A model generated the notes under the pieces. It searched no databases. It was not told where the DNA came from and worked only from the letters and a program-made list of their open reading frames with translations. Source: Acidimicrobiales bacterium (lineage in GTDB: Bacteria; Actinomycetota; Acidimicrobiia; Acidimicrobiales; CADCSY01). Taken from it: a DNA stretch of 43,115 nucleotides. The stretch lies in NCBI GenBank assembly GCA_035512495.1, contig DATKDW010000043.1:1-43115 (forward strand), in the 5' to 3' direction. Below, piece after piece: positions 1,963 to 4,125 of the stretch; positions within the stretch are counted from its first letter, which is position 1; every line of letters begins with the position of its first letter. A program made the translations under genes and the position numbers.

Positions 1963-2937
1963 TCAACCGAGGGCGCTGAGCTCGTCCCTCAGGCGGTCGG
2001 AGCGGAGGCGCCGCAGCGTCGTCTGGCGGGCTCGCTCGGCCACCGCCTTGCGCCTGCTCTCGTCCATGGACCTGGAGGTGGGCCCCATGACGGCGAGGTC
2101 GTCGGGCCCGGGCTGGAGGGTGATCACCCGGCTCCGGTCGGTCCGCAACACGGTCACCTCGCGCTGGAGGGCGGCGCGGTGGCCCACCCGCACCATGCGG
2201 TCGAGGGCGGGTCGTCGCAGGGCGCTGGAGTCGAGCGACATCGACGACGACACGAGGATGAGGTCGAGGTCGAGGCCGGCGAGGACGTCGGCGTTGGTGG
2301 GCGAGTGGACGCCCCCGTCCACGTGGTCGCGGCCGTCGATGGGCACGGGTCGGAAGAAGCCCGGGATGGCGCATGACGCCTCGACGGCGTGGCCGAGGTC
2401 GACCGTCCCCTCGTCGCGACCGAAGACCACGCGGTGGCCGTCGTCGAGCCGCACGGCGCACAGCCACAGCGACCGGTCGGGCCACCCCGAGGGGTGGAAC
2501 GCCCGGGCGGCGTCGCCGATGGCGGTGGTGTCGACGCGGCCGCGGGGCAGGATGCCGGCCATGAGCAGGCCTGGTCGCAACCGCCAGGGGGCGAGGACGG
2601 TCCGGGTGGCCAACCCCGGCGACGCCGGCGACCAGCGCGGGCCGGTCGCCGCGTCGGCTCGGGAGAACGAGCGCGGCGGTCCCTTGATGCCGGCCTGGGC
2701 CAGCGCGCGCCGGCCCTCGTCGGACAGGCGCCCGCCGGTGGAGCGCGCATAGATGTCGGCGGCGGCGAACCCGCCGCGCAGCAGGGCCCCCACCACCGAC
2801 CCGGCCGAGGTCCCGACGACGATCTCGGCCGACCGGGGGTCCCACCGCGTGGTCTCCTCGAGGGCGGTGAGCACGCCGGCGTGCCAGGCGTGGCCGACCA
2901 CACCGCCGGCGCCGAGCACGAGAGCGATGCCTGCCAC
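1963..2937 (-). CDS. Patatin-like phospholipase (RssA/NTE family)
   Basis: Serine lipid hydrolase of 324 residues. The three hallmarks are visible: the glycine-rich oxyanion loop GAGGVVG at residues 9-15, the nucleophile elbow GTSAG at 42-46 (Ser44), and the catalytic Asp of the DGGV motif at 207. This Ser-Asp dyad is the patatin signature. No signal peptide or membrane segment is evident, so it probably acts in the cytoplasm or at the inner membrane face. Its ATG lies 1 base beyond the stop of the upstream MarR gene, so the two are almost surely co-transcribed and the lipase may be under MarR control. The substrate cannot be inferred. Confidence 0.88.
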   Translation of the reverse strand: MAGIALVLGAGGVVGHAWHAGVLTALEETTRWDPRSAEIVVGTSAGSVVGALLRGGFAAADIYARSTGGRLSDEGRRALAQAGIKGPPRSFSRADAATGPRWSPASPGLATRTVLAPWRLRPGLLMAGILPRGRVDTTAIGDAARAFHPSGWPDRSLWLCAVRLDDGHRVVFGRDEGTVDLGHAVEASCAIPGFFRPVPIDGRDHVDGGVHSPTNADVLAGLDLDLILVSSSMSLDSSALRRPALDRMVRVGHRAALQREVTVLRTDRSRVITLQPGPDDLAVMGPTSRSMDESRRKAVAERARQTTLRRLRSDRLRDELSALG

Positions 2938-2938
2938 G

Positions 2939-3436
2939 TCAGGCGTCGGCGGGGTCGGCGGACCGGGTCGCGTCCCGCAGCCGCTCGAGCAGCGCCGTCA
3001 GGGTGGCGAGGCCGCGGGCGCCGAGAGGGTCGACCAGGTGCCGGTCGAGGCTCTCGAGGTGGGCCGGGAGCGCTCGCTCAAGCGCGGCGAGCCCGTCGTC
3101 GGTGAGCACAGCGAAGGCCCCGCGCCGGTCATCGGGACACGACTCCCGCCGCACGAGCGCGGCGTGCTCCATGCGGTCGATCAGCCGGGTGAGGCCGCTG
3201 GTGCTGAACAGGACCTGGGCGGCGAGCTCGCTCATGCGCATCTGCTTGCCCGGGCTGCGGGCGAGCCGCACCAGTACCTCGAACCAGGCAGGGGAGAGGC
3301 CCGATGTCGCCTCGAGCTCGTCGGCGACCGCACTGACCAGAGAGGCCCGCGCCTCCAGCAGCATCCCGTAGGCGGTGATGCGCTCCTGGCCCTCGGCCAG
3401 CAGGTCGTCGAGCGCGCCGGGAGCCGGGGGAGCCAT
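2939..3436 (-). CDS. MarR-family transcriptional regulator
   Basis: A 165-residue winged-helix repressor type. The middle has the MarR order: helix-turn-helix MRMSELAAQVLFSTSGLTRLIDRME, then the charged wing VRRESCPDDRRGAFAVLTDDG, with dimerisation helices at both ends. The regulated spacer lies just upstream: three inverted repeats built on TTGC/GCAA sit between this gene and the divergent yceI-like gene, overlapping both promoters, so self-repression and control of YceI are likely. The -10 TATCCT (3448-3443) is only 6 bases before the ATG, so the mRNA is probably leaderless. A single Cys is in the wing region (ESCPDDRR), so a redox signal is possible but not shown. Confidence 0.9.
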   Translation of the reverse strand: MAPPAPGALDDLLAEGQERITAYGMLLEARASLVSAVADELEATSGLSPAWFEVLVRLARSPGKQMRMSELAAQVLFSTSGLTRLIDRMEHAALVRRESCPDDRRGAFAVLTDDGLAALERALPAHLESLDRHLVDPLGARGLATLTALLERLRDATRSADPADA

Positions 3437-3442
3437 GGCCCG

Positions 3443-3494
3443 AGGATAGGAGCCACCTGCAACTGTTGCAACCGCAACTAGTTGCGGGTAGCAT
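3443..3494. promoter_or_regulatory. Back-to-back promoters sharing one palindromic -35, with MarR-type operators
   Basis: The hexamer TTGCAA at 3466-3471 is its own reverse complement and sits exactly 17 bases from two -10 boxes. TAGCAT at 3489-3494 lies on the plus strand (toward yceI) and TATCCT at 3448-3443 on the minus strand (toward marR). Inverted repeats overlap it: TGCAACTGTTGCA at 3458-3470 and the perfect GCAACTAGTTGC at 3474-3485. A further TTGCAGCAA lies at 3512-3520. A dimer bound here would cover both promoters. Confidence 0.65.
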
Positions 3495-3540
3495 GGCTGT
3501 TCCTACAACCATTGCAGCAACAACGAGAAGGAGCGATCCG

Positions 3541-4125
3541 ATGACAGACACCGCGACCACCACCGTCACCCGCAGCGTTCAGGGCGCCGAGGTGCCCACT
3601 CCCGGCACGTTCGAGATCGACCCCTCCCACTCGGAGGTGGGCTTCACCGTCCGCCACCTCGGCCTGTCGAAGGTCCGGGGACGCTTCGGCGCCTTCTTCG
3701 GCACCGTCGTGGTGGCCGACGACCCGACCGACTCGTCGGTGGAGGCCGAGATCGACCTGGCCAGCGTCGACACCCGCGACGAGGGCCGCGACACCCACCT
3801 CCGCTCCGCCGACTTCTTCGACGCGGAGGTTCACCCGGCCATGACGTTCCGTTCGCGCCGGGTCAGCGCAGCGGCGGGGGGCTGGAGGGTGGAGGGCGAC
3901 CTCACCATCAAGGGCGTCAGCCAGCCGGTGATCCTCGACACCACCTTCGAGGGCGCCATCAGCGCCGACCCGTGGGGCAGCGCCCGGATCGCCTTCACGG
4001 CTGAGGCCGAGATCGATCGTGAGGCCTTCGGCCTGACGTGGAACCAGGCCCTCGAGACCGGCGGTGTACTCGTCGGGCGCAAGGTCAAGGTCCAGCTGGA
4101 GATCCAGGCCGTCCGCACCGCCTAG
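3541..4125 (+). CDS. YceI-family lipid-binding protein
   Basis: A 194-residue lipocalin-like beta-barrel protein of the YceI family, members of which bind isoprenoid chains. Family features seen are GTFEIDPSHSEVGFTVRHLGLSKVRGRF near residues 22-49, the ADFFDAEVHPAMTF segment, and the DLTIKGVSQPV turn. There is no signal peptide, so it is the cytoplasmic actinobacterial form. The ATG at 3541 is set by a good ribosome site, AGAAGGAG at 3526-3533. An upstream in-frame opening contains the promoter and is not coding. It is divergent from the MarR gene and probably controlled by it; a strong hairpin terminator follows. Confidence 0.92.
   Translation: MTDTATTTVTRSVQGAEVPTPGTFEIDPSHSEVGFTVRHLGLSKVRGRFGAFFGTVVVADDPTDSSVEAEIDLASVDTRDEGRDTHLRSADFFDAEVHPAMTFRSRRVSAAAGGWRVEGDLTIKGVSQPVILDTTFEGAISADPWGSARIAFTAEAEIDREAFGLTWNQALETGGVLVGRKVKVQLEIQAVRTA

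Follow-up and report, generated by a model that had tools for sequence, protein, structure and literature searches.

Predicted MarR operators overlapping the divergent promoters of a marR–yceI gene pair in an Acidimicrobiales bacterium

Genes of the marR–yceI locus

The window (the whole stretch of 43,115 nt that was analysed; genome G000, 2.8 Mb in 97 contigs) carries a divergent MarR/YceI gene pair with 104 nt between the two genes. The genes and the signal preceding yceI are as follows.

1963–2937, minus strand: patatin-like phospholipase gene (PF01734, 5e-17), with a GTG start 1 nt past the marR stop codon
2939–3436, minus strand: marR, MarR-family winged-helix regulator of 165 aa, ATG at 3436, probably leaderless
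3528–3533, plus strand: AAGGAG, ribosome-binding site of yceI as read from the sequence, 7 nt upstream of the ATG
3541–4125, plus strand: yceI, YceI-like domain protein of 194 aa

The marR product scores above the curated cut-offs of PF12802 (2e-13, 50.7 bits; cut-off 27) and PF01047 (6e-11, 42.5 bits; cut-off 24.6), and the yceI product belongs to the YceI family (PF04264, 7.5e-51, 172.9 bits; cut-off 23.7). The patatin-like phospholipase gene lies 1 nt 3′ of marR and is therefore probably in the marR operon, co-transcribed with marR and hence a further target; a gene of this type adjoins MarR in 7 of 130 loci, mainly in genomes of the same family. Elsewhere in the genome, two more YceI-family frames adjoin each other on opposite strands (G000:C37:16420-17371).

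A homologue search finds MarR in 131 of the 198 genomes of the order, and at the best MarR loci of the order yceI is mostly divergent from marR. Loci from the order, the same family, the whole class and named genomes give 90 distinct marR/yceI pairs, 39 of which come from the class Acidimicrobiia; the named relatives include proteins of Micromonospora, Actinoplanes, Nonomuraea, Streptosporangium and Aquihabitans. The solved structures nearest to MarR are those of two Streptomyces coelicolor homologues, AbsC (3ZMD, 1e-23), which is the closest by sequence, and SCO3205 with DNA (3ZPL, 1.2e-20). MarR has a cysteine (Cys100) located three residues N-terminal to the conserved D-R-R of the wing. This residue is invariant in an alignment of 15 sequences, occurs in 106 of 130 MarR relatives as well as in SCO3205 and AbsC, and may act as a sensor of redox state or metal.

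Operators and promoters of the intergenic region

In the marR/yceI intergenic regions of the 39 Acidimicrobiia loci, the conserved element is gTTGC-N4-GCAAc, with arms pointing inward. A MarR dimer is expected to bind a pseudopalindrome near its own promoter, and conservation points to this element as the putative operator. The elements assigned between the two start codons are as follows.

3443–3448, minus strand: predicted marR −10, TATCCT, 17 nt from TTGCAA (spacer 3449–3465), ending 6 nt before the ATG
3465–3478, unstranded: O1, main predicted MarR operator, GTTGCAACCGCAAC (GTTGC-AACC-GCAAC), 10 of 10 arm positions, best copy in the window
3466–3471, both strands: TTGCAA, predicted yceI −35, made of the left O1 arm plus two spacer bases; possibly the marR −35 on the minus strand
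3489–3494, plus strand: predicted yceI −10, TAGCAT, 17 nt from TTGCAA (spacer 3472–3488)
3496–3509, unstranded: O2, degenerate operator, GCTGTTCCTACAAC (GCTGT-TCCT-ACAAC), 7 of 10, exactly 31 bp from O1
3511–3524, unstranded: O3, operator, ATTGCAGCAACAAC (ATTGC-AGCA-ACAAC), 8 of 10, exactly 15 bp from O2

Sites that match at least 8 of the 10 arm positions number 58 in the 39 class loci versus 3.0 in dinucleotide shuffles, a count made on the very loci from which the motif was derived and one that overstates independence because the loci are related. At least one such site is present in 35 of the 39 loci. The copies are regularly spaced: 21 pairs lie 15 bp apart (0.08 in shuffles) and 21 lie 30–31 bp apart (0.14 in shuffles), and the spacing of 46–47 bp is likewise sharp. 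These distances define an array of O1, O2 at +31 and O3 at +46. In the window, O2 occupies the position that it has in relatives, directly after the yceI −10 and across the predicted yceI start; with 7 of 10, the window's copy is weak. The closest relative (L044, 67% identity) has no clear O1. O1 is the only intergenic exact copy of the operator in the genome, and because the other exact copies (on contigs C62 and C86) lie within coding frames, a wider regulon is not claimed. The operator is not recognisable in the marR/yceI pairs of Streptosporangiales and Micromonosporaceae, so the rule is valid for only part of the group; within the class, too, not every locus follows it. The intergenic regions of those pairs (L101–L174) contain TTGACA/TTGACG-like −35 elements and a conserved GGAATATTCC-like block, with no TTGC operator.

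Promoter elements are positioned with respect to this motif on the yceI side. Among the 58 operator copies, a TANNNT hexamer lies at +24 from the operator start in 15 and at +23 in four, all other offsets being represented by at most three copies each. Of the 14 loci that align best, nearly all have 17 nt separating the TTGC arm of O1 from the yceI −10, which makes it very probable that this left arm serves as the −35 of yceI. On the marR side, conservation is anchored at the start codon: TANNNT precedes the in-frame ATG or GTG of marR by 6 nt in 18 and by 7 nt in 13 of the class loci (31 of 39 together), for which reason the marR mRNA is probably leaderless, and the same two positions dominate across all 90 pairs (59 and 19, respectively). 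Leaderless actinobacterial genes carry TANNNT immediately upstream of the start codon (PMC3160421), with the first T about 12 nt before it; the TATCCT of marR, 6 nt from the ATG, fits this class with no specific difference. Judged by Escherichia coli rules, the matches are weak, TTGCAA and both −10 hexamers each agreeing at four of six positions, and neither promoters nor terminators were returned by a strict sigma-70 scan, whose thresholds are unsuited to TANNNT promoters. The hexamers around TTGCAA fit the actinobacterial TANNNT type.

Sequence and conservation thus point to the gene pair, the operator motif with its array, the −35 and −10 of yceI and a leaderless marR; to these we add, by inference, MarR binding at the operators, repression and effector release. 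The arrangement is likely to be an autoregulated divergent repressor–target module in which MarR, bound at O1 with the help of O2 and O3, represses both genes. A MarR dimer would occupy O1 (TTGC-N4-GCAA) and, since the left TTGC arm is the presumptive yceI −35, would block sigma directly at the yceI promoter, for which a start at about 3501 is predicted. O1 also overlies the upstream portion of the promoter of leaderless marR, whose predicted start is the A of the ATG (3436), so that the same binding event would lower expression of marR and probably of the patatin gene that follows it. Repression of yceI would be reinforced by O2, which spans the yceI start, and by O3, 15 bp beyond O2, and a ligand or an oxidant would free MarR, enabling expression of both genes.

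The sequence-only reading had proposed overlapping divergent promoters with 5′ ends at 3436 (minus) and 3501 (plus), and a single repressor-binding event able to silence both sides. Both proposals find support on sequence grounds. With O1 at its centre, a 24-bp footprint would extend over about 3460–3483, near the 3458–3485 that had been predicted. Some MarR-family proteins are activators, and MarR might accordingly activate yceI instead of repressing it; this is very improbable, because the operators overlie the yceI −35 and start, where bound protein would block polymerase.

The same reading took TTGC/GCAA inverted repeats overlapping TTGCAA as the MarR dimer site. Inverted repeats are indeed present, including longer imperfect ones and two outward palindromes, each formed where an arm of O1 meets a stray arm beside it.

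3458–3470, unstranded: outward palindrome TGCAAC-T-GTTGCA, in which a stray GCAAC arm (3459–3463) meets the left O1 arm; not conserved
3472–3487, unstranded: perfect outward palindrome CCGCAACTAGTTGCGG, in which the right O1 arm meets a stray GTTGC arm (3481–3485)

The part of the claim that stands is the placement of an operator over the −35; the predicted operator itself is the inward gTTGC-N4-GCAAc at 3465–3478, and the outward palindromes are not conserved. That these palindromes are themselves the dimer sites is quite unlikely. No inverted repeats in the window are more perfect, they are built from the same half-sites, and much of both would fall within a 22–24 bp footprint on O1; against this, relatives retain TTGC-N4-GCAA but not these palindromes, and the arrangement bound by SCO3205 is the inward TTG-N6-CAA one (PMC3737563). 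The core of the perfect palindrome, GCAACTAGTTGC, has a single copy in the genome and occurs in 9 of the 198 genomes of the order; among the copies examined in other genomes of the order, none lies beside a marR/yceI homologue, which also argues against the outward palindromes. Its single copy in the genome, together with the absence of marR/yceI homologues beside those other copies, also led to rejection of the 12-bp perfect palindrome as a regulon motif.

TTGCAA as a −35 shared by two promoters

Direct reading of the sequence confirms that TTGCAA stands 17 nt from a −10 on either strand, as the sequence-only reading had stated, and it is the sole site with this two-way spacing within the 43-kb window. 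A shared bidirectional −35 with TANNNT at 16–18 nt on both sides arose in 0 of 5000 dinucleotide shuffles of 3431–3545, a figure that is an upper bound on surprise and flatters the shared −35 because the pattern was picked after being seen. The hexamer can be read as a −35 from both sides because O1 has AACC as its spacer and is separated by 16 nt from the marR −10. In relatives, the distance between the marR −10 and the operator varies from 7 to 26 nt (7–13 nt in most of those that align well), without a sharp peak, and marR therefore lacks a conserved −35; for marR, use of TTGCAA as a −35 is presumed from its position. In relatives such as L045 and L012, the two O1 arms lie near the −35 positions of the respective promoters. 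TTGCAA is common to both promoters only in the window among the 90 aligned pairs, and a direct pattern search recovers one more marR/yceI pair with a shared TTGCAA (genome G399, locus L178, of another order). Conservation at the marR/yceI pair does not extend to the self-complementary −35.

The hexamer may accordingly serve yceI only, with the −10 sufficing for the marR promoter and the minus-strand match at 17 nt arising by coincidence from the AACC spacer and the 16-nt gap; the chance of this falls a little short of even. The peakless distribution of distances in relatives favours it, as does a rough estimate from the site matrix, in which about 10% of spacers start with AA and fewer than 10% of gaps equal 16 nt, such that about one chance case would be unsurprising among this number of loci. 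The second TTGCAA-bearing pair argues the other way, since it also has a 16-nt gap, and so does the occurrence of two-way spacing at other regulator loci.

These other loci come from a search for ANNNTA-N17-TTGCAA-N17-TANNNT in 296 genomes of the class, which returned six sites in five genomes. Each of the six has one TANNNT whose end lies exactly 6 nt upstream of the start codon of a DNA-binding regulator gene: the MarR of the window, that of the MarR/YceI locus L178, two Fur-family regulators, an NrtR-type NUDIX regulator (adjoining an ADP-ribosylglycohydrolase gene) and an HTH/ArsR-like regulator. Control spacers of 13/13, 14/14 (codon-phase-matched to 17/17) and 21/21 gave 2, 0 and 3 sites, respectively, outside one AT-rich genus; none has a start codon 6 nt downstream, and the control sites taken together lie mostly within long frames. 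An apparent avoidance of 17/17 in the AT-rich genus g152, where there are no matches, was dropped because the phase-matched 14/14 control is also low there. In further genomes of the phylum, 13 more 17/17 sites occur, one of which lies 7 nt upstream of a Fur-family gene that adjoins a likely zinc-binding protein; several others lie in AT-rich DNA.

Two groups of these sites consist of related loci. The two Fur-family genes (L177 and L180) belong to one genome, G022, and have very similar TTGCAA-centred divergent promoters, one of them beside a NicO nickel transporter. In the phylum, four orthologous 17/17 sites (L231, L232, L234 and L242), all from one family, lie upstream of a secreted-protein-like gene.

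Because few sites are involved and the two Fur sites are paralogues, the scan is a lead, not a result. It suggests that, in the class, leaderless regulator genes repeatedly have a symmetric TTGCAA divergent promoter next to them. The stronger proposition, that a shared self-complementary −35 (TTGCAA with 17 nt to TANNNT on both sides) is a recurring Acidimicrobiia promoter type, usually serving a leaderless autoregulated regulator and its target and coupling polymerase orientation and repressor binding at one 6-bp element, is tentative and on balance doubtful.

The sequence-only reading had further supposed that yceI and marR compete for polymerase even without the repressor. Such competition is possible but unproven and would not require the symmetric −35: two polymerases may plausibly exclude each other sterically because the predicted starts are 65 bp apart, not because a hexamer is shared. 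That the self-complementary −35 is by itself a switch, with polymerase bound one way excluding the other and yceI and marR anticorrelated even without MarR, is unlikely. The exact 17/17 geometry, with its result in shuffles, and its recurrence at other divergent regulator promoters of the class, including a second marR/yceI pair, speak in its favour; however, only one of the 90 aligned pairs has the shared TTGCAA, the hexamers match weakly, and polymerase exclusion would operate in relatives that lack TTGCAA as well. Also against a switch, all five of the E. coli bidirectional promoters tested (of the shared −10 type) have basal activity too low for competition (PMC12825309).

Known systems and significance

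The autoregulated module favoured here resembles that of SCO3205, the nearest MarR with experimental characterisation, and its O3204-O3205 region, with a homologous MarR, a divergent target and a TTG-N6-CAA operator geometry; SPR footprinting located two operators between the SCO3205 gene and its divergent neighbour, with the consensus TTnAAnnnTCAA, a native site TTGA-ACTC-TCAA and a 24-bp footprint (PMC3737563). The two operators lie in a 119-nt intergenic region, and repression of both SCO3205 itself and its neighbour is proposed, as at marR/yceI. The window has TTGCAACCGCAA in place of the consensus given there, keeping the TTG-N6-CAA geometry with different inner bases. Unlike at marR/yceI, the SCO3205 half-site is TTGA rather than TTGC, the target is extradiol dioxygenase-like rather than yceI, and the passages drawn on describe no counterpart of the shared −35 (PMC3737563). 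AbsC is tied, as cited in the same paper, to zinc-dependent antibiotic control and not to a yceI neighbour (PMC3737563).

The locus is also comparable to the bidirectional promoters of Warman, Grainger and colleagues, in which symmetry allows polymerase two orientations on the same DNA and which often lie between divergent genes, including regulators (PMC12825309). Those promoters share a −10 and have starts about 10–23 bp apart, whereas at marR/yceI the −10 elements are separate (3443–3448 and 3489–3494), the −35 is shared and the predicted starts are 65 bp apart; the locus is thus not of that type.

Within the literature collection searched, no publication was found that connects YceI with a divergent MarR. 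The sequence-only reading is partly supported, its interpretation being improved rather than overturned. As a regulatory module the marR/yceI locus is of an ordinary kind; its layout is unusually exact and now well defined. The self-complementary −35 represents a local variant and may exemplify a promoter type that has rarely been described. The analysis provides a predicted operator and promoter map for a MarR–YceI module that is common in actinobacteria, with a layout indicating that a repressor half-site can itself be a −35 element. If it holds beyond marR/yceI, the symmetric −35 would be a second route to bidirectional promoters, besides the shared −10.
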